A DNA stretch of 64,000 nucleotides, from contig WQZX01000001.1 in NCBI GenBank assembly GCA_009780515.1, positions 1 to 64,000 on the forward strand, given 5' to 3'. A model generated the notes under the pieces. It did no database searches. It was given only the letters and a program-made list of their open reading frames with translations, and was not told the origin of the DNA. Made by a program: the position numbers and the translations under genes. Source of the DNA: Nocardioidaceae bacterium. GTDB taxonomy: Bacteria; Actinomycetota; Actinomycetes; Propionibacteriales; Nocardioidaceae. Of the stretch, positions 1-32,437 are shown piece after piece (the first letter of the stretch is position 1; every line of letters starts with the position of its first letter).

Positions 1-123
1 CACGACCGAGGACCTCGAAGTGGAAGAGCCGGCACCGACCGGCACATCAGCCACGCCCCGAGCCGGACCAACGCGATGCTCCACCGAAATCACCGATCAC
101 ATATCAGCCGTGGTGGATCCGGG
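1..123 (+). mobile_element. Right-end remnant of an IS1380-like element (rest lies outside the window)
   Basis: Aligns by eye to the right end of the complete IS at about 52588-52710, including shared GTGGTGGATCCGGG / GTGGTGGATCTGGG ends; clearly diverged from that copy. Confidence 0.7.
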
Positions 124-137
124 ATCAGTGGGCGACG

Positions 138-965
138 TTGTACGTCGGCCTCACCGCCGTGCTGAACGTCGTCGACAAGGGCGACAAGGGGCTCGCTCTC
201 ACAGCCCACCAGACCTACCGGGACCCGAACCTTCGCCTCGGGTGGACGGACGAGTGGAGCAAGGCTGCCCCGGTGACCGAATGGTCTCAGCGGTGGCCAG
301 ACGTTGAGCGGTACCTCGAGAAGATCATCGCCTTCACCGTCACCAAGGGCGGCAAGTACGTCAAGACCGAGGGCATCGTGCAAGCGGCCGTCTCGGGCTA
401 CCTCGGCGATCACCGGCGCGCGGTCATCGACCGCGAGGTCGTCCCCAGTTTCCGGGACACCGCCACCAAGACCCGGATCCACGGAGAGTGCAGCGACCCG
501 CTGGCCCAGGCGCTCATTCAGGCGAATCTCGGGTTCGGGAAGCCGCCATCGTCGTTCGGGATGGAGACCGACGCACTGGCGGTCGATCAGGACGGCCGCT
601 TGGTCGCCATCGAGATCAAACCGGGGAGCGTCGGCTCACTCGCCTGGGTGCCGGCGCAGGCGACGATGTATGCCCGGGTCCTGCAACGGTGGGTCGACCT
701 CGACAGTGACCACTGGAAGTCGGTGATCGAGAAGATGCTCGACCAGCGACGCCGGATCGGTCTCGCCACTCCCGACTTCAAAGCCAAGGACTTGCAGCCA
801 AGAGTCGTGTCTGCCGTCGCGTTCCAGCGAGTCGCCAACGACACCTACATCGACCGCATGTACAAGGTGCAGGACACACTGCTCAAGGCCGGCGTCGGCG
901 ATTCGGAGCTTGAGTTCTTCGCGGTCGCTCCCTCCGGCCGACTCGATGTCCATGCGCGCCTGTAG
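138..965 (+). pseudogene. Probable 5'-truncated PD-(D/E)XK nuclease-like protein
   Basis: Contains METDALAVDQDGRLVAIEIKPGS (E/D-Xn-E-X-K). Only a TTG start at 138; the reading frame stays open upstream into the IS end (D-Q-W-A-T-L-Y-V-G), suggesting the N-terminus was removed by the IS. Confidence 0.5.
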
Positions 966-993
966 GTACTGATCGGGTTCTTCTCAAGATGTT

Positions 994-2064
994 GTGTCGG
1001 ACCGGCCAGCCACCCTTGCCGACGTGAACAACAGCAACAGCCAGCGAACGCCGCTGGCCGGGGAGGGCCCCCGGAAGACGAACCCCTACGCCACCACCCA
1101 CAACAGGCTCGCGATCGCCTGGAAGCAGCGCGCTGCGACGCTGCCCGACGAAGCCCGCGAGCCGGGTCACTACTCCCACGGAGACAGGCTCCAGGGCCCG
1201 TACCCGGTCTGCCTTCCGCTGGAATACGCGGCACACAACCTCCTGCCCGAGGTCCGCGACGGCGCTCTCGCGCTGTTCGCCGAGCTGGACATCTCGTGGC
1301 ACGACTCAGTCGCGGGCGGCCCGAGCAATCACCTGCGGGACTCGCAGGTCCAGTGCGTCAACGCGCTCTTCGCGATGGTGTCGGACCCGGACCGCCTCAA
1401 GCGCGCCTTCGGCCGGGTCGTCGACATCGCGGAGGTCTTCCAGATCGAGGACGGCCGGTACCTCACGTTCGAGTACATCGGTCCCACTGACTACTTCGGC
1501 GAAGGCGTCCGTCACGGCAAGGAGGTGGGGCGGCGCCGTGGCACCAACTGCACCAGCGTCGACGCCGCCTTCCTCTTCAGGTCGTCGACCGGCGTCACCG
1601 AGCTGGCGCTGGTCGAGTGGAAGTTCACCGAGTCCTACCTCACCGCCCAGGACCGTGATCCTGCCTCCGACGCCGTCCGGATCGGTCGGTACGCCGAGGA
1701 TCTCTCCGCGCCCGACGGCCCGGTGCGAGCAGACGTCCTCCCGATCGAGCTTCTGTTGGACGAGCCGTTCTACCAGCTGATGCGGCAGCAGCTCCTCGCC
1801 CACCGGCTGGAGCAGGCTCACGCCCACGGCGCGGACGTCGTACGCGTCCTCCACGTCCTCTCCCCGGACAACACCGGCTACCAGGACTCGCTGGCCCGGC
1901 CCGAGCACCGGGCCATCGGCGCCACGGTCGACGAGGCGTGGTCCAAGCTCCTGCGAGCAGCGGATCGGTTCGTGCACATCGACCCGTCGGTCTTCCTCGA
2001 CCCTCTGATCACGTCCGAGGCGTACGTCGACCGCTACGCGACCTCGCAGTCGCTCGATTCCTGA
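994..2064 (+). CDS. PGN_0703-family-like putative restriction endonuclease
   Basis: NPYATTHNRL, WHDSVAGGPSNHLRDSQVQCVN, FEYIGPTDYFGE and DAAFLFRSSTGVTELALVEWKFTESY (PD-(D/E)XK core) resemble this family as I recall it; GTG start. Confidence 0.65.
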   Translation: MSDRPATLADVNNSNSQRTPLAGEGPRKTNPYATTHNRLAIAWKQRAATLPDEAREPGHYSHGDRLQGPYPVCLPLEYAAHNLLPEVRDGALALFAELDISWHDSVAGGPSNHLRDSQVQCVNALFAMVSDPDRLKRAFGRVVDIAEVFQIEDGRYLTFEYIGPTDYFGEGVRHGKEVGRRRGTNCTSVDAAFLFRSSTGVTELALVEWKFTESYLTAQDRDPASDAVRIGRYAEDLSAPDGPVRADVLPIELLLDEPFYQLMRQQLLAHRLEQAHAHGADVVRVLHVLSPDNTGYQDSLARPEHRAIGATVDEAWSKLLRAADRFVHIDPSVFLDPLITSEAYVDRYATSQSLDS

Positions 2065-2148
2065 GGTTGTTGCCGTGCTCGGCGACGTCACGGCTTTGTG
2101 TCGGATGTCCTCCGTAGTCTCCGTCTCAGATGACGAAGGAGGTTCCAC

Positions 2149-2964
2149 ATGGAAGATGTGAACCGCGGCGAGATGTTCGCCGCAACGAATGAGACCGCGG
2201 CGTGGGCCGCGCTCGAGCAGGCCCTGGTGGCATACGTCGGCGGGATGACCGACCCGAGCGACCACCTCGACCTCGAGGTGCCCGGCAACCTCTGCGCATG
2301 CTTCACGGCCGCCGACTCCGGTGACGTCCAGCTGACGCTGCCCGACCTCGACACCCAGCAGGTCCGGTCGCGGGAGCGAGCCGCCGACCTAGCCGCGGCG
2401 GCCGTCGTCGCGCTGCGCGACCAGATGCACCTGGCCCACCCGCACCTGCTGACCATCAGCGCCTCGGGGCCCCAGGCCGCGCTGCGCGGGATGCTCGGGC
2501 TCGAGGACTCCGACGACGTTCCACACGAGCCGGGCGGCCCCGCCGCCCCCGTCGTGATCACTCCCAGCGGCCGCGACGACCTCAACGCCGCGATCGCCGA
2601 GGCGCTCACCAAGAAGTACGCCGAGGAGCCGACCGTCGACAGCGACGGCGACTTCGTGCTGAGCCACATGGGTCAGACCGTGTGGGTGCACGCGTTCGAC
2701 GACCAGCCCGCGGTCCGGATCATGGCCCGCGTGGCACACGACGTGCGGTCCCGCCGCCAAGCCGCTGTCGAGCTGGCGATCCTCAACCGCAACAGCGTCT
2801 TCGTCGACTGGGCACTGACCGACCGCGACGTGTGGCAGCGCATCACGTTCCCCGCCGGCCCGTTCGCGCCGGACCACCTCGACGAGATGCTTCGGCAGTT
2901 CTTCGCCGCGATGTCCGAGACCCGCGACGACCTGGCCCTGCGCCTGGGCGCGACGGTCGCGTGA
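2149..2964 (+). CDS. TY-Chap / YbjN-like (T3SS-chaperone fold) peptide-binding protein
   Basis: Two alpha/beta repeats with YbjN-like sequence (FVLSHMGQTVWVHAFDDQPAVRIMARVAHDV; ELAILNRNSVFVDWAL). RBS AAGGAGG upstream of ATG 2149. Confidence 0.5.
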   Translation: MEDVNRGEMFAATNETAAWAALEQALVAYVGGMTDPSDHLDLEVPGNLCACFTAADSGDVQLTLPDLDTQQVRSRERAADLAAAAVVALRDQMHLAHPHLLTISASGPQAALRGMLGLEDSDDVPHEPGGPAAPVVITPSGRDDLNAAIAEALTKKYAEEPTVDSDGDFVLSHMGQTVWVHAFDDQPAVRIMARVAHDVRSRRQAAVELAILNRNSVFVDWALTDRDVWQRITFPAGPFAPDHLDEMLRQFFAAMSETRDDLALRLGATVA

Positions 2965-4418
2965 AGACCCTGACCACCGCCCAGCAGGACCGGGCCTGCG
3001 GCACGGTCCTCGGCACCGCCGTGGGCGATGCCCTCGGCGCCGGTTACGAGCTCGGCTCCGCTCCCCTCGGGCCGACCGGTCCCCAGATGATCGGCGGCGG
3101 GCTCGGCGACTTCGAGCCCGGCGAGTGGACCGACGACACCACCATGGCGTGGTGCATCCTCGACGTCGCCGCCCGCCACGTCGACCTGCGTACCGCCGAC
3201 GGGCTCGACCAGATCGCGCGCAACTTCCGCGCCTGGTACGACTCCCGCCCGCCCGACATCGGCAACCAGTCCCGCACCGTCCTGCGCCAGGCAGGCCCGG
3301 AGCCGACCGGAGCGGTGATGACCGCGACCGCCTACGACCTCCACGCCCGTACCGGACGCACCGCCGGCAACGGCTCCCTGATGCGTACGGCGCCCGTCGC
3401 GCTGCCGTTCCTCGATGACCCGGACGCGCTCACCGAAGCAGCGCGGAAGGTCAGTGCGCTGACCCACTACGACCACCAGGCCCAGGAGGCCTGCGTGCTG
3501 TGGTCCCTCGCGATCCGACACGCGATCCTCCACGCCGAGCTCGACCTCCGCGCCGGCCTCGACCACCTGCCCGAGCAGTCGCAGGCGTTCTGGGTCGAGC
3601 GGATCGAGGAGGCCGAGACCGCCGCCCCCAACAGCTTCTCCCCCAACGTCTGGGCCGTCGCAGCGCTGCAGGCGGCATGGGCCGCGATCCACCAGACCCC
3701 GGTGCCGACCGACGACCCACGGCGCCACGTCGAGGACGCACTCGCCTGCGTGATCGGCATCGGGCACGACACCGACACGACCGCCGCCATCGCCGGTGCG
3801 CTGCTCGGTGCCCGGTGGGGAGCGTCCGCGTTCCCGGCGCGCTGGCGACGGATCACCCACGGCTACCCCGGCCTGACCGGCGAGCAGCTCGTCGAGCTCG
3901 CCCACCTCGCCGCCAACGGTCGCCCCGGCGTCTACGGCTGGCCGACCGTCGGGCGGATCGACTACTCGGTCTACGACATCGGGATCACCCCGATCCCCCA
4001 CCCCTACGACGACAAGGTGCTGCTCGCCGACGCCGCAGCCCTCGACCAGTTGCCCGACGGCGTGACCGCCGCGGTGAGCATGTGCCTGCTCGGCACCGCC
4101 CAGGTCCCCGACGACATCGAGCACCGGTCCTTCCGGCTCATCGACCGCGCCGACGCGGAGTCGAACCCGAACCTGGACTTCATCCTGCGCGACGCGGCCA
4201 CCGCGATCGCCGACCTCCGGACCGAGGGCCACACCGTGCTGCTGCACTGCGTGGCCGCCCAGTCCCGCACCCCGGCCGTCGCCATCGCCTACGCGATGAC
4301 CCTCGGGATCCCCTACACCGAGGCGCGCCGCGCCGTGCTCGCCGCGCTGCCCACGGCGCGGCCCAACCACGGCTTCGAAGCCGCCCTCCGCCGGCTCGCC
4401 ACGAAGGAGCAGGCATGA
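2961..4418 (+). CDS. ADP-ribosylglycohydrolase fused to C-terminal dual-specificity-phosphatase domain
   Basis: N-terminal GTAVGDALGAGYE, EWTDDTTMAWCI, GIGHDTDTTAAIAGALLGARWG (metal-binding motifs of the family); C-terminal HCVAAQSRTPAVAIAYA (CX5R loop). GTG start overlaps the previous stop (GTGA). Confidence 0.85.
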   Translation: MKTLTTAQQDRACGTVLGTAVGDALGAGYELGSAPLGPTGPQMIGGGLGDFEPGEWTDDTTMAWCILDVAARHVDLRTADGLDQIARNFRAWYDSRPPDIGNQSRTVLRQAGPEPTGAVMTATAYDLHARTGRTAGNGSLMRTAPVALPFLDDPDALTEAARKVSALTHYDHQAQEACVLWSLAIRHAILHAELDLRAGLDHLPEQSQAFWVERIEEAETAAPNSFSPNVWAVAALQAAWAAIHQTPVPTDDPRRHVEDALACVIGIGHDTDTTAAIAGALLGARWGASAFPARWRRITHGYPGLTGEQLVELAHLAANGRPGVYGWPTVGRIDYSVYDIGITPIPHPYDDKVLLADAAALDQLPDGVTAAVSMCLLGTAQVPDDIEHRSFRLIDRADAESNPNLDFILRDAATAIADLRTEGHTVLLHCVAAQSRTPAVAIAYAMTLGIPYTEARRAVLAALPTARPNHGFEAALRRLATKEQA

Positions 4419-4894
4419 AGAAGACGCTCTACATCGACATGGACGGCGTCATCTGCGACTTCGACTCCGGCCTCGCCCGCCTCGACCCCGCCGTGCGCGA
4501 GCGGTACCGCGGTCGCGAGGACCAGATCCCCGATCTGTTCTCCCTGATGACGCCGATCCCCGGCGCCATCGAGGCGGTGACCGAGCTGGCCGGCCTGTTC
4601 GACACCTACGTGCTCTCCACCGTCCCGTGGGCGAACACCTCCGGCGCGAGCCAGAAGATCGAATGGATCCAGCGCCACTTCGGCAAGGACCGACACAGCC
4701 CGCTGTGGAAGCGGATCATCCTGTCCCACCACAAGCACCTCAACCGCGGCGACTACCTCATCGACGACCGACCGCACCGCAACGGCGCCGCCCAGTTCGC
4801 CGAGACCAACGCCGGCGCCACGACCCTGCACTTCGGCAGCCCCGAGTTCCCGGACTGGGCGACCGTGCTCGACTTCCTCCGGCCCAGAGCATGA
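4415..4894 (+). CDS. 5' nucleotidase, deoxy (NT5C type), HAD superfamily
   Basis: MKKTLYIDMDGVICDFDSG motif I and DYLIDDRPHRNGAAQF; ATG overlaps the preceding stop (ATGA). Confidence 0.8.
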   Translation: MKKTLYIDMDGVICDFDSGLARLDPAVRERYRGREDQIPDLFSLMTPIPGAIEAVTELAGLFDTYVLSTVPWANTSGASQKIEWIQRHFGKDRHSPLWKRIILSHHKHLNRGDYLIDDRPHRNGAAQFAETNAGATTLHFGSPEFPDWATVLDFLRPRA

Positions 4895-4973
4895 ACGAAT
4901 TCAGGTCCGCCCACGAGGTACTCCCGACCAGGCGGAAGAATCCGAGTCCCGCGCTGCAGCGGCACTGTCCTGG

Positions 4974-5182
4974 TCACGGCGAGAACTTCCTCCGCGCAGG
5001 CATCACTTGGATGATCCGGGTGCGTCGTCGTACTCGCGGTAGCCGACTTCGAGCATCGCGCCGTCCTCGACGGGTCCGATGAACATCGCGGAGCCGTCGC
5101 CGTCGTCGAAGACCTTCACGTAGTTGCAGAGCGCGTACAGCATGTCGGCGTCCTCGACGCCGTGCTCTCCGTGATCCTCATG
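4974..5182 (-). pseudogene. Frameshifted remnant of a small toxin-like protein
   Basis: Reverse strand reads HEDHGEHGVEDADMLYALCNYVKVFDDGDGSAMFIGPVEDGAMLEVGYREYDDAPGSSK*; a one-base frame change at about 5010 gives RIIQVMPARRKFSP*, the ending expected for that small actinobacterial toxin-like family. Confidence 0.4.
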
Positions 5183-5237
5183 ACTGCAGGTTTTCTTGCA
5201 CCAGCCGACGGAAATGCAAGGGAATTTGCAAAGAGTC

Positions 5238-5507
5238 TCAGCCGCATCGGAGACGACTCATGGCCGACCTCCCGGCATTCGCTGAGGGAGTCGACCCCGC
5301 GGCGAACGTCGACGCCGGCACGCCACGTTCTTCGGCAAGCTTCGCCCCCAGGCGGTAGTCGTCCTCGTTGAGGTGAACCTGAAGTACGTTGCTCCGGTCG
5401 TGGCCGCGAGTGACCCGCACGTTGCTCGGCAGCACCAGGTCGACCGAGTCGTCCGCCTCTTCGGCGGCGCGAGACTCGGACTCGATCAGGTCAGAGATCC
5501 TGTTCAT
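5238..5507 (-). CDS. Small antitoxin-like protein (possible ribbon-helix-helix/CopG type, possibly C-terminally frameshifted)
   Basis: MNRISDLIESESRAAEEADDSVDLVLPSNVRVTRGHDRSNVLQVHLNEDDYRLGAKLAEERGVPAST...; upstream of the toxin-like remnant. Confidence 0.4.
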   Translation of the reverse strand: MNRISDLIESESRAAEEADDSVDLVLPSNVRVTRGHDRSNVLQVHLNEDDYRLGAKLAEERGVPASTFAAGSTPSANAGRSAMSRLRCG

Positions 5508-5574
5508 GACATCTCCTCCGAGAGGCGCGTCGCGCTGACTCTGAATCGAGATCTCAGGGCTGCTCGGCCTCGCG

Positions 5575-6654
5575 TCAAGCCGGCGCCGGAGGGCGTCCTG
5601 CCGCGCCCAGCGGCACCATTCCGATGGCTCTGCCTTCGGCGTCGAGGAGTCGACCCATGCGCTTGAGGGACCTGAGGATGATGCTTCTCTCGGTGACCCT
5701 CAGGTCGGTGAAGGTCGAGCCGAGCTTCGCCTCCAACGCGATCAGGTCCTCCGGGCGCCGCAGCATCCCCATCAGCAGCAGGTTGCTCCGACCTCCCGCG
5801 GTCGCGACGCACATCCGGATCTGCGGCCAGGTCTGCAGAGTGCTCGCCAACGCGTCGAGCCGACCGGCGGGCAGCTGGGCCCGGACGGTCACGTTCGTGC
5901 GCCAGCCGGCCAACGGATGAGCGAAGTCGCAACGCAGGACGAGTACCCCCGCGCGTCGCAGCGCCTCGATGCGCCGCCGGACGGTCGCCTCGCTCTTCCG
6001 CGCCGAGGCCGCCAGTCGCGAGGCCGGTACCCGGGCGTCGGCACCTAGCGCCAGGATCAGACCGGCATCCTCGTCTCGCAGCCCTCGCCCTGCTGGAGCG
6101 GGTCGGTCGCGTGCGCCGGCAAGCACAGCGCTCGCCGTCGGCTCCAGCGCCTGCGCACGCAGATTCGAGCCGTCGAAATACATCCGCGTGGCGACGGCGC
6201 TCCGGACGGCCTGGAGACCGGGCGTGCTGCGCAGTCGGGTCAGGACGACGTCGTCGAGGTCGCTCATCTCATCGACGGCGACGCACAGCAGCAGGTCCCA
6301 CTCCCCGTCCAACCGATCGACACCGAAGACGTAGGGATCGCGGCACACCTGGTCGCAGACCGCTGGGAGCGCGCTCGGCGCGCAGCGCAGCCAGATGTAG
6401 GCGACCTGGGTCGTGGTCGACGTATAGGCGGTCGTCCAGGCCAAGCCGTCCGCACTCAACCGCTGCCAACGACGAGCCGCCGTGGTGGCGTCGATCCCGA
6501 GGGCCTGACCAATGCGGCTCCAGGCTGCTCTGGGGTCGATCTGCAATGCATGAATCAGCCGGAGATCCTCTTCGCTGAGGGAGCGCGAGCCCGAATCCTG
6601 CAGAGAAGCACCGGAACGGTCGGAATCCGGCATCTCGGTCGGCACTTCCCCCAT
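5575..6654 (-). CDS. Lrp/AsnC-type regulator with two HTH modules
   Basis: Two AsnC-type HTH segments (LSEEDLRLIHALQIDPRAAWSRIGQALGIDATTAARRWQRL and LRDEDAGLILALGADARVPASRLAASARKSEATVRRRIEAL), each followed by a sensor-like region. Confidence 0.8.
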   Translation of the reverse strand: MGEVPTEMPDSDRSGASLQDSGSRSLSEEDLRLIHALQIDPRAAWSRIGQALGIDATTAARRWQRLSADGLAWTTAYTSTTTQVAYIWLRCAPSALPAVCDQVCRDPYVFGVDRLDGEWDLLLCVAVDEMSDLDDVVLTRLRSTPGLQAVRSAVATRMYFDGSNLRAQALEPTASAVLAGARDRPAPAGRGLRDEDAGLILALGADARVPASRLAASARKSEATVRRRIEALRRAGVLVLRCDFAHPLAGWRTNVTVRAQLPAGRLDALASTLQTWPQIRMCVATAGGRSNLLLMGMLRRPEDLIALEAKLGSTFTDLRVTERSIILRSLKRMGRLLDAEGRAIGMVPLGAAGRPPAPA

Positions 6655-6696
6655 ATCGCCGATTCTGGCACGACTCGAGATGAGAGAGAGTTGTTC

Positions 6697-7899
6697 ATGG
6701 GGGGTCGTCGGCTGGCAGGCATGGCCGTGTTCTCGATGTGCGTCCTGGTGGCCTCGGTGGCGCAGGTGCCGGACCCGGCATCGGCAGGTACGCCGACGGC
6801 GAGGGCCACGCGAACGAGCTTCTATGCTCCGCCACCCGGTTCGGTCGCCGGACCGCACGGCACCGTCATCCGGGCCCGCAGGATCTCCGGTCCGGCCGCC
6901 TTCCCGGACTCGACGACCTGGCTGGTGCTCTACCGCTCGCGGACCTCCGCCGGCACTCCGGCGGTCTCCTCCGGAACAGTGACGGTGCCCGATGGCGATG
7001 CGCCCGAGGGCGGCTGGCCGCTGATCTCCTGGGCACACGGCACAACGGGCGTGGCCGACGCCTGCGCTCCGTCCAGATATGGGCCGGGCTACGGCTCCGA
7101 GGCCTATGTGTCGGTCTACCGGGCCACCTTGGCTAAGTGGGTCGCGGCCGGCTACGCCGTCGCCCAGACCGACTACATCGGGCTCGGCACGCCGGGCCCC
7201 CACGCGTACGCCGATGGCGTCGCGGAGGCGCATGCCGTTGCCGACATCGCGGCAGCCTCACGAACGGTGGCACCTTCGATCGGCAGGCGCTGGGTGGCCA
7301 TGGGACATTCCCAGGGTGGTCAGGCCGCGATCTTCGCCTCGGCGCTGGGCCAGGCCTGGGATCCGCAGATGAGGCTGCTCGGAGCAGCGGCTCTGGCCCC
7401 GGGCTCGAACTGGGTCACGGACGTCGGCCTGCTCCGAAGCCTGCCGGTGACCAATCCCGGCGTGGCGTTCCTGCCGCTGCTGCTGCGTGGAGTCCAAGCG
7501 GTGAGCAGCTTCGATCCCGACACGGTCCTCACCGACAGGGCCGAGGCGCTGCTTGACGATGTCGACAAGGGCTGCCTGGCACAGCTGCAGGAGAAGACCT
7601 CCTGGGGCGGGATCAGGGGCAACGCCGTGTTCAGGAGTGGCGCTGACTTGAGTCAGCTCAACAGGGTCCTCAAGGCCGATGACCCCGGGACGACGAGTCC
7701 GAAGGTCCCGATCTTCATGGCACAGGGTCTGCTCGACCAGACGTCGCTGGCCCCCTTCACCGAGGTTCTCGCACTGGAGCTTCGGGCGAAGCGCGTGAGG
7801 CTCGACTACCAGCGCTATCCCACAGCCGATCACCGCGGGGTGATCGCAGCTTCCTATCCGGCGGCCCAGCGGTGGGTGGCCGCGTTGTTCGCGAGCTGA
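6697..7899 (+). CDS. Secreted lipase (LIP family, alpha/beta hydrolase)
   Basis: N-terminal signal peptide; WAHGTTGVADACAPS, AVAQTDYIGLGTPGPHAYADG, GHSQGGQAA nucleophile elbow. Confidence 0.8.
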   Translation: MGGRRLAGMAVFSMCVLVASVAQVPDPASAGTPTARATRTSFYAPPPGSVAGPHGTVIRARRISGPAAFPDSTTWLVLYRSRTSAGTPAVSSGTVTVPDGDAPEGGWPLISWAHGTTGVADACAPSRYGPGYGSEAYVSVYRATLAKWVAAGYAVAQTDYIGLGTPGPHAYADGVAEAHAVADIAAASRTVAPSIGRRWVAMGHSQGGQAAIFASALGQAWDPQMRLLGAAALAPGSNWVTDVGLLRSLPVTNPGVAFLPLLLRGVQAVSSFDPDTVLTDRAEALLDDVDKGCLAQLQEKTSWGGIRGNAVFRSGADLSQLNRVLKADDPGTTSPKVPIFMAQGLLDQTSLAPFTEVLALELRAKRVRLDYQRYPTADHRGVIAASYPAAQRWVAALFAS

Positions 7900-7925
7900 C
7901 CGAGATCGAGTACCCGGGGGGAGAT

Positions 7926-9203
7926 ATGAAGGTCGCGCAGAGATCGGTCGGACTGGTCGCGGCAGCGACGGCAGCGAGTCTCGCGCTGCTCTCCCCTGCC
8001 ACAGCGCAGGCGGCAACGAGCGTGCCGACTCCGGCGAACGACTCGTTCTACAGCTACTCAGGACCCTTGAGCGGAGTGCCCAACGGGACGATCCTGCGCA
8101 AGCGCACGGTCGAGACCGCCCCCATGGGCACGGCAGCGGTTCTGCCCGCCACTCAGGTGCTCTACAAGACCACCGACGATCTCGGACAGCCCGATGCGAC
8201 GGTGGCGACGATCTTCCGACCCCTGAGCAGCATGCTCGGCATGAGGTCGAAGATCATCTCGTACCAGGAGTTCTACGACGGCCTGGCGAGCACCTGCCGC
8301 CCCTCCTACCAGCTGCGCATCGGCGGCACGACGCTGAGCAAGGCACAGAACGCGGTCGACGAAGAGCCGATCACCCAGTGGCTGGCCGCGGGGTACACGG
8401 TCGTCACGAGCGACTACGAGGGCTCGACCGACGACTTCGGCGCCGGCATCCAGTCGGGTCGCCAGACCCTCGACGGGATCAGGGCGACCGAGCACCTGCT
8501 CGGAGACCCCGCTAGCACGGCCGTCGGGCTGGAGGGCTATTCCGGTGGGTCGACCGCGAGCATGTGGGCGGCTCAGGAGCAGCCGACGTACGCACCGAGG
8601 TTGAACATCAGGGGCGTGGCAGCCGGCGGCATCCCGGTCGACTTCGCCCACAACCTGCTGTACATCAACGAGTCCACCAGCTGGGCCGGCGCGATGCCCG
8701 CGGTGGCGTTGGGGCTGATCCGGGCCTTTCATGCCGACGCGAGCACGTACGCGAACGCGGCGGGCATGGCGGTGCTGACCCAGACGGCCAAGGGCTGCCT
8801 CGTGCCCAAGGCCGACCCGGGCCTGGACTTCCACACCATGCTGAAGCCGGCGTATCAGGACTGGCAGCACGTCCCGTTCTTCGTGAAGGTCTTCAACTCC
8901 ACGATCATGGGGCGCGGGCCCACTCCGAGGGAGCCGTTGCTCATGACGGTCGGGAGCTCCGATGGCACCGGCGACGGGGTGATGGTCGCCAAGGACGTCC
9001 AGCAGCTGGCCTACGAGTACTGCCGGCGCGGGGTCCCGGTGGACTTCAAGACCGACAAGGGCCTGAACCACACCGAGGCCGCATTGTCGTTCCTGCCAAG
9101 GGCGACGGCGTTCTTGAACGCACGGATGCACGGACGCAGCACCACGACCGACTGCTCGAGCACGGAGGCCGGCAACCCGCTGACGCCGCTGCCGGCGCAC
9201 TGA
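7926..9203 (+). CDS. Secreted lipase (LIP family)
   Basis: Signal peptide; GYTVVTSDYEGSTDDFGAG, GYSGGSTAS nucleophile elbow, C-terminal NHTEAAL. Confidence 0.8.
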   Translation: MKVAQRSVGLVAAATAASLALLSPATAQAATSVPTPANDSFYSYSGPLSGVPNGTILRKRTVETAPMGTAAVLPATQVLYKTTDDLGQPDATVATIFRPLSSMLGMRSKIISYQEFYDGLASTCRPSYQLRIGGTTLSKAQNAVDEEPITQWLAAGYTVVTSDYEGSTDDFGAGIQSGRQTLDGIRATEHLLGDPASTAVGLEGYSGGSTASMWAAQEQPTYAPRLNIRGVAAGGIPVDFAHNLLYINESTSWAGAMPAVALGLIRAFHADASTYANAAGMAVLTQTAKGCLVPKADPGLDFHTMLKPAYQDWQHVPFFVKVFNSTIMGRGPTPREPLLMTVGSSDGTGDGVMVAKDVQQLAYEYCRRGVPVDFKTDKGLNHTEAALSFLPRATAFLNARMHGRSTTTDCSSTEAGNPLTPLPAH

Positions 9204-31155: not shown

Positions 31156-31727
31156 CCAGAGCACTGATCGTCGTGGACGTGCAGAACGACTTCGTCGAGG
31201 GCGGCTCGCTCGGCGTCGTCGGAGGCAAGGACGTCGCGACCGCCATCACCGCCCACCTCGCGGTGCACGCGCAGGAGTACGCCGTCGTCGCGGCCTCCCG
31301 CGACTGGCACAACGCCGGCGAGACCAACGGCGGCCACTTCGCCGAGCCCGGCGATGAGCCCGACTTCGCCACGACCTGGCCGGTGCACTGCGTCTCGGGC
31401 GAGCACGGCTCGGAGTACGCCCCCGAGCTCGACACGACCGACGTGACCGTGCACGTCGTGAAGGGCATGGGCGAGCCGGCGTACTCGGCGTTCGAGGGGG
31501 TGACCTCGTCGGGCGAGAGGCTCGTGGACGTGCTGCACGCGGCCGGGGTGACCTCGGTCGACGTCACCGGCATCGCCACCGACCACTGCGTGCGCGCGAC
31601 CGCCCTCGACGCGCGGGCGGCCGGCTTCGACGTACGGCTGCCGCACGGGCTGCACGCGGGCGTCGCTCCGGACACGTCGGCGGCGGCGCTGGAGGAGATG
31701 GCGGCGGCCGGCGTGGAGGTGCGCTGA
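31152..31727 (+). CDS. pncA: Nicotinamidase (isochorismatase family)
   Basis: [51 protein letters not shown]. Confidence 0.92.
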
Positions 31728-32437
31728 TGTACACGACGAAGTACCCGCCGTTCGCGGTCACCGTCGACATCGCGCTCTTCACCATCCGCGACGGCGTGCT
31801 GTCGGTGCTGCTGGTCGAGCGCGGCGGCGAGCCGTACGCCGGCGCCTGGGCCCTGCCGGGCGGCTTCGTGGATCCCGACGAGGACGCCGAGGCCGCCGCC
31901 TGGCGCGAGCTGGCGGAGGAGACCGGCGTCGAGCAGTTCTCCGGACACCTCGAGCAGCTGCGCACCTACTCGGCCCCCGACCGCGACCCGCGCATGCGCA
32001 CGGTGTCGATCGCGCACGTCGCCTTCGCCCCCGACCTCCCCGAGCCGGCGGCCGGCGACGACGCCGCCGACGCGCGCTGGTGGGCCGTGGAGGACCTGCT
32101 CGGCCACGGGCTCGGCGAGGACCGCCCGGCCCTCGCCTTCGACCACGAGGAGATCGTGCACGACGCGCTCGAGCGGGTCCGGGCGAAGCTCGAGTACACC
32201 ACCCTGGCCGCGGAGTTCGTGGCCGAGCCGTTCACGCTCCCCGAGCTGCGCCGGGTGTACGCCGCCGTCTGGGGCACCCCGCCCGACCTCGGCAACTTCC
32301 GCCGCAAGGTGCTCGGCACCGACGGGTTCGTCGTACCGGTCCGGGGCGGCGGCGCCGCCTCCACCGGCGGCCGTCGCGCCGCCCTCTACCGGCGGGGCCC
32401 CGCCACCACGGTCTCCCCGCCGATGTCGCGCAGCTGA
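31727..32437 (+). CDS. nrtR: NrtR-like Nudix-domain transcriptional regulator of NAD metabolism
   Basis: Nudix-like [23 protein letters not shown] plus C-terminal winged-helix [15 protein letters not shown]...[13 protein letters not shown]; directly after pncA. Confidence 0.88.

Follow-up and report, generated by a model that had tools for sequence, protein, structure and literature searches.

Why would a bacterium join in one polypeptide a domain that removes ADP-ribose and a domain that removes phosphate, and place the gene between those of a predicted chaperone and a second phosphatase? The question is raised by an operon near the start of contig WQZX01000001.1 of a Nocardioidaceae bacterium (assembly GCA_009780515.1), of which positions 1 to 64,000, here called the window, were analyzed. 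Three consecutive genes on the plus strand, with a 4-bp overlap at each junction, encode TY-Chap1, a fusion of an ADP-ribosylglycohydrolase (ARG) with a phosphatase, and an NT5C-type HAD phosphatase (NT5C). Our best explanation, which we consider probable but hold with clear reservations, is that the operon frees host molecules of ADP-ribose that an enzyme of a phage or a rival has attached to them, and that it does so as a member of the ARG-centred host conflict system that has been predicted for bacteria (Iyer, Burroughs, Anantharaman, and Aravind 2022; PMC9503650, section 3.8).

An ARG-phosphatase fusion with two intact active sites

The identities of the three genes, as proposed in an earlier note on this DNA that was made from the sequence alone, agree with the matches to PF22551, PF03747, PF06941, and PF00782 (Table 1). 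The last of these falls slightly short, with the fusion reaching 33.0 bits and the curated cut-off lying at 33.5; the phosphatase half is nevertheless assigned to the dual-specificity phosphatases because it is also matched by such enzymes in the PDB (DUSP22 and others), because the structural model is confident, and because D395 and the H429-C430-X5-R436 signature are conserved. The open reading frames (ORFs) and the GTGA and ATGA overlaps were found as the note had given them, in keeping with the translational coupling that it proposed, and the genes for TY-Chap1 and the fusion abut or overlap in several homologous loci as well.

Both active sites of the fusion are intact. The ARG motifs TDDT (residues 57 to 60) and HDTDTT (residues 269 to 274) and the CX5R motif of the phosphatase are present, and in an alignment of 23 sequences (counts were also made over 40 rows) T60, N137, and H429 are invariant, as are the residues listed in Table 1; D398 of the phosphatase domain showed no conservation in this alignment. 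The equivalence of D99 to D97 of DraG derives from an alignment to PDB entry 2woc and to the D97N variant 2woe. Loss of catalytic residues in homologues, which the earlier note had named as a sign against its reading, was looked for, and the residues were found to be kept.

The 23-sequence alignment, with three plasmid rows left out, was given to AlphaFold2, which modelled the whole fusion with a pLDDT of 93.3 and a pTM of 0.93. The closest folds in the PDB are those of DraG, of an ARG protein from Thermus, and of the toxin-immunity pair Tre1/Tri1. The fusion did not reach the cut-off of the equivalog model for DraG (TIGR02662; 106 bits versus 337) or of that for Tri1 (NF041672; 99.3 bits versus 490).

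Table 1. Features of the locus; positions refer to the window unless residues are given
Feature	Position	Strand	Evidence or remark
TY-Chap1 gene	2149..2964	+	ATG start, 271 aa; Pfam PF22551 3.9e-27
TY-Chap1 domain, predicted peptide-binding chaperone	residues 143-267 of TY-Chap1 gene product		PF22551
ARG-phosphatase fusion gene	2961..4418	+	GTG start, 485 aa
ADP-ribosylglycohydrolase (ARH/DraG) domain	2976..3920	+	PF03747 ADP_ribosyl_GH 8.7e-52
ARG-domain residue E30	3048-3050	+	invariant, 23 sequences
ARG-domain residues D58-D59	3132-3137	+	invariant, 23 sequences
ARG-domain residue D99 (= DraG D97)	3255-3257	+	invariant, 23 sequences
ARG-domain residues T168-H169	3462-3467	+	invariant, 23 sequences
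ARG-domain residues D270/D272	3768-3776	+	invariant, 23 sequences
Dual-specificity (rhodanese-phosphatase superfamily) domain	3993..4415	+	PF00782 DSPc 5.9e-8
Phosphatase D395, candidate general acid	4143-4145	+	invariant; 35 residues before cysteine
Phosphatase nucleophile C430	4248-4250	+	invariant, 23 sequences
Phosphatase R436	4266-4268	+	invariant, 23 sequences
NT5C-type HAD phosphatase gene	4415..4894	+	ATG start, 159 aa; PF06941 5.5e-14
Shine-Dalgarno AAGGAGG of TY-Chap1 gene	2136..2142	+	strong; read directly from sequence
GTGA stop/start overlap, TY-Chap1 to fusion	2961..2964	+	read directly
ATGA stop/start overlap, fusion to NT5C	4415..4418	+	read directly
REase1, PD-(D/E)XK-like nuclease ORF	138..965	+	motif E143-x-D145...E159-x-K161
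REase-ARP, restriction-endonuclease-like	1024..2064	+	PF22558 3.1e-46

Distribution and changing partners among relatives

In a sample of 250 Nocardioidaceae genomes, 85 had an ARG match (E <= 1e-40), and 46 carried between them 50 loci with both fusion domains, two of these loci as two abutting reading frames; this number of two-domain loci is far beyond chance. TY-Chap1 was found within 2 kb of 22 of the 50 loci and within 10 kb of 29, and REase-ARP within 10 kb of 10. The corresponding numbers for the 39 ARG-only loci were 3, 6, and 0, and all such distances depend on contig ends where genomes are fragmented. Hence, the conserved neighborhood expected by the earlier note holds for TY-Chap1 and the fusion, well beyond close relatives; it does not hold for NT5C, whose relatives occur in only 5 of the 250 genomes of the family and in 3 of 397 genomes of the order, our own genome counted in. 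This sporadic distribution rules out NT5C as a conserved third gene. The four other relatives within the family sit on ARG-less contigs, albeit short and fragmented ones, and further relatives include Vibrio phage deoxyribonucleotidases with up to 46% identity. Two relatives with 71 to 73% identity (L076:2762-3238 and L077:851-1171) have AbiEi/AbiEii-like genes and a DUF262-like gene in their vicinity, and such neighbors suggest that NT5C is a travelling accessory gene.

The fusion itself likewise behaves as mobile accessory DNA, as indicated by copies in Gordonia, which are nested within the Nocardioidaceae tree with strong support, and by copies on linear plasmids of Streptomyces, where the fusion gene stands without TY-Chap1, Nudix, or other partners. 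On three such large plasmids (L039, L040, and L041) the lone gene lies about 40 to 60 kb from one end among neighbors that the plasmids share, and neither TY-Chap1 nor a Nudix regulator was recognized nearby. Phages of Streptomyces have only the ARG part. One homologue (L085; G240:C1:2844465-2845898) is split by a TAG stop into two ORFs and is probably decaying.

Clustering of the neighborhoods of 43 loci, in a few of which ARG itself escaped the simple ORF calling used, gave Nudix-helix-turn-helix (HTH) regulators in 20, ARPP in 12, and SIR2 in 10, besides HD, vWA, WYL, Macro, TM0106, and NERD-helicase genes; all of these appear as exchangeable neighbors of ARG. The SIR2 protein has about 500 amino acids and a C-terminal SIR2 NADase domain of the ThsA/KomC/DSR2 type (PF13289, 4e-23; PADLOC ThsA, 2.3e-28; PDB profiles of ThsA and KomC, near 1e-20) with the conserved motifs GAGxS, TTNYD, and HG. 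It occurs 23 times in the 250 genomes, 11 times within 5 kb of ARG and at distances as short as 67 to 93 bp (among others, L086:3508-4992, L093:6370-7929, and L105:9460-11109). A binomial estimate for random placement gives about 1e-22 for this proximity, which is overstated because defense genes cluster in islands. The N-terminal domain could not be named, since its model is too uncertain (mean pLDDT 63), and to call the fold macro-like would be guesswork. A relative of the SIR2 protein was not found in the genome of the window. The presence of a ThsA-like SIR2 gene near ARG appears to be new; systems of this kind may have escaped or been excluded from the published description, in which the selection was for systems without coupled ADP-ribosyltransferases or sirtuins, and the text of section 3.8 is silent on a SIR2 NADase partner (PMC9503650).

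In relatives, a Nudix-HTH gene runs divergently to TY-Chap1 or ARG, and the region between them holds the palindrome TTAGC-N11-GCTAA, either once or as two copies with a spacing of 24 to 28 bp. Across 666 kb of related loci, the strict form of the pattern was counted 14 times; 13 of these occurrences, in eight loci, lie at most 60 bp upstream of a Nudix regulator gene. All eight loci (L003, L079, L082 to L084, and L006 to L008) are among the nearer relatives of the window, with the palindrome between the Nudix-HTH gene and TY-Chap1 or ARG; the remaining Nudix loci have degenerate or different sequences. From its position, the palindrome is likely the operator of the Nudix regulator, whose own identity and function we infer from the position of its gene. 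A tandem palindrome beside a Nudix regulator appears to be new. The window copy has lost both relative to its relatives: the palindrome pattern is absent from the window, and no gene for a Nudix or WYL regulator is present in positions 1 to 4894 (WYL was not searched for genome-wide, and the DNA left of base 1 is unseen). L080 and L081, two of the nearest relatives in the tree, have neither the Nudix gene nor the palindrome. The sole relative of the ARG-linked Nudix regulator in the genome has 34% identity and lies at 31739-32395 of the window; by eye, the Nudix-HTH (NrtR-like) gene at 31727-32437 follows a gene resembling nicotinate phosphoribosyltransferase.

The two nuclease-like genes that the earlier note saw beside the operon are real: one is REase-ARP, for which an earlier GTG start at 994 is possible, and the other, REase1, is a PD-(D/E)XK-like ORF without a match to a Pfam family. 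Its E-x-D...E-x-K pattern, typical of PD-(D/E)XK nucleases, is invariant in three sequences, and its 5' end is uncertain because position 1 of the window is a contig edge, where the left flank of the locus is lost, and homologues have a longer N terminus. PADLOC, run on the five window genes, gave only two weak PDC-S11 matches (E of about 0.015), both for REase1. In six of six genomes with REase1 (the window, G177, G215, G216, G118, and G023), it is followed directly by REase-ARP on the same strand, an arrangement that appears to be new. Only two of these pairs (the window and G216) lie within 10 kb of ARG; REase1 and REase-ARP are therefore a module of their own that joined this locus, and a role as obligatory ARG partners is ruled out. 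In G215, a SIR2 gene lies directly upstream of the pair.

The insertion sequence end that had been noted beside the operon was not recovered, as no transposase-like ORF was seen among those read in positions 1 to 9200 (a dedicated search for insertion sequences was not made). A short ORF on the minus strand (5238-5507) adjoins the operon; judged by eye only, it looks like a small antitoxin whose end may be broken. The 10-mer TTGTGTCGGA is identical in both short gaps, before REase-ARP (992-1001) and before TY-Chap1 (2096-2105); counts with one mismatch were not above those in shuffled sequences, and we make no claim for it.

A proposed role and its alternatives

In our model, TY-Chap1 probably binds a client that has been modified by an outside ADP-ribosyltransferase, either of a phage or of a rival bacterium. 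The DraG-like domain would cut the glycosidic bond at its binuclear metal site and release free ADP-ribose, and the fused cysteine phosphatase, here together with NT5C, would strip phosphates from the released product or from the exposed end. REase1 and REase-ARP would add a separate layer that cuts nucleic acids. Relative to other loci, the window copy is a variant in which the Nudix regulator and operator were given up and NT5C was gained. The analysis establishes what the genes are, that the active sites are intact, that the association with TY-Chap1 is conserved, and that regulator and operator were lost; the substrate, the sequence of the reactions, the part played by the chaperone, and a function in defense are the proposed elements of the model. 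That removal of ADP-ribose is coupled to removal of phosphate, as the earlier note suggested, is supported and is also the published proposal (PMC9503650, section 3.8); the interpretation in that note is partly supported as a whole, and the observation behind it is confirmed.

Several points weigh against this explanation. There is no known ADP-ribosyltransferase or phage partner, and an experimental study of any member of the ARG-centred system was not found in the open-access literature searched, although one may exist elsewhere. As many as 28 of the 50 fusions are without TY-Chap1 within 2 kb. Four of the six nuclease pairs are away from ARG, and the pair may be an adjacent, separate system. 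Finally, the ThsA-like SIR2 genes associated with ARG in relatives speak instead for a chemistry of ADP-ribose as a small molecule.

The main rival is a metabolism of soluble ADP-ribose species, in which the module would handle NAD-derived nucleotides (ADP-ribose, ADP-ribose phosphates, and cyclic ADP-ribose) and would serve NAD-based immunity as a branch for turnover or control. Glycohydrolase, phosphatase, Nudix or HD protein, and nucleotidase would jointly degrade the signal or the toxic product of a SIR2- or TIR-type NADase. Besides the SIR2 genes with intact motifs close to ARG, the Nudix-HTH regulators, a class tied to ADP-ribose sensing in the literature, and the HD phosphatases that are common beside ARG would fit this view. 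However, SIR2 lies away from ARG in about half of the cases and no relative of it was found in our genome, TY-Chap1 suggests a protein client, and characterized ARG enzymes act mostly on conjugates (PMC9503650). What the SIR2 link adds to its probability is lowered by TY-Chap1 and by the record of the characterized enzymes, and we regard it as unlikely while granting it a real chance. Also unlikely is an inducible NAD/ADP-ribose immune circuit with a Nudix regulator that sits on a tandem palindromic operator and senses ADP-ribose species, a ThsA-like SIR2 NADase as the toxic arm, and the ARG-phosphatase as the clearing or antidote arm, from which the window operon would derive by loss of regulator and NADase and by addition of NT5C and the nuclease pair.

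It is also imaginable that ARG takes ADP-ribose off phosphorylated RNA or DNA ends and that the phosphatases trim the exposed phosphate, that is, that the module heals nucleic acid ends. There is precedent, since the ARH-like SCO5809 and macrodomain enzymes reverse the ADP-ribosylation of phosphate ends made by the KptA-like SCO3953, and the PARG operon of Deinococcus combines hydrolase, ligase, and phosphatase (PMC11833690); furthermore, NT5C comes from a family with nucleotide substrates. But NT5C is rarely present, no ligase recurs among the neighborhood clusters examined, and the co-occurrence with KptA/Tpt1 that the earlier note had in mind was not borne out: among 68 genomes of the genus, KptA is present in 1 of 25 that bear the fusion and in 5 of 43 that lack ARG, without enrichment, and our own genome has none. 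End healing is improbable. Least probable, in our judgment, is an ordinary accessory module for metabolism or stress (nucleotide salvage or control of endogenous ADP-ribosylation) without a role in conflict. No phenotype is known, and relatives reside on large plasmids and on chromosomes without an obvious defense neighbor, as such a module might; the patchy spread over the family, the transfer between orders, the neighbors matching defense-family models, and the mosaic of accessory genes fit conflict systems better.

If removal of ADP-ribose from host molecules is indeed the function, bacteria own dedicated machinery that undoes ADP-ribosylation by phages or rivals, a predicted arm of immunity, and the compact, regulator-less three-gene version in the window would lend itself well to testing this for the first time. 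Two further concrete handles, and the ones most worth following, are offered by the relatives: the ThsA-like SIR2 gene that recurs beside ARG and the conserved palindrome as putative operator.

Comparison with known systems

In the ARG-centred system, which is proposed to counter ADP-ribosylation by viral enzymes, a phosphatase is coupled to ARG in a little over 55% of cases, either within one polypeptide or as the product of an adjacent gene; most of these phosphatases are from the rhodanese-phosphatase superfamily, and a HAD 5' nucleotidase may stand in their place or beside them. Predicted peptide-binding chaperones (TY-Chap1 to TY-Chap3, vWA, and SseB) are frequent, restriction endonucleases and ARPP, Macro, or NADAR genes vary, and a Nudix or WYL regulator is present in about 42% and not obligatory (PMC9503650). 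The accessory or conflict context assumed in the earlier note matches this system. The window likewise has ARG and a rhodanese-superfamily phosphatase in one polypeptide, an adjacent TY-Chap1, a HAD 5' nucleotidase, and a restriction-endonuclease-like gene, and because of this gene content we assign it to the system, already predicted in 2022, as a new member. It differs in that a Nudix or WYL regulator gene and the operator are missing at the locus, NT5C is coupled to the fusion, and REase1 is an extra nuclease without a Pfam name. These variations (NT5C in the operon, loss of the regulator, joining of the nuclease pair) are modest. Among the five genes in positions 1 to 4894 there is no ADP-ribosyltransferase or sirtuin (of the former, only KptA was searched for, and the left flank lies beyond the contig edge), whereas a SIR2 gene is often adjacent in relatives.

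NT5C belongs to the same family as the human cytosolic and mitochondrial 5'(3')-deoxyribonucleotidases (PDB 1mh9 and others) and those of phages; it scores 52.9 bits against a PF06941 cut-off of 24.8 and retains all HAD motifs I to IV (D8xD10, S68/T69, K107, and D117-D118). In contrast to those enzymes it is short, and the segment after motif I is reduced compared with that of the human enzyme, which could open the active site; its substrate range may therefore differ.

DraG, the dinitrogenase reductase-activating glycohydrolase (PDB 2woc and 2woe), is the best Foldseek match to the fusion (1.3e-11, with a TM-score of about 0.8 on the target), and the fusion keeps the metal-site residues and the equivalent of D97. 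It differs from DraG by an identity of only about 25%, by the extra phosphatase domain, and in that no partner DraT was seen. Similarly, the fusion is not an orthologue of Tri1, the ADP-ribosylarginine hydrolase of the Tre1/Tri1 pair (PDB 6dre and 6drh), as its score lies below the equivalog cut-off, and it has no paired toxin; but both belong to the same superfamily, and Tri1, as an eraser of ADP-ribose in bacterial conflict, offers a functional analogy to the role proposed here.

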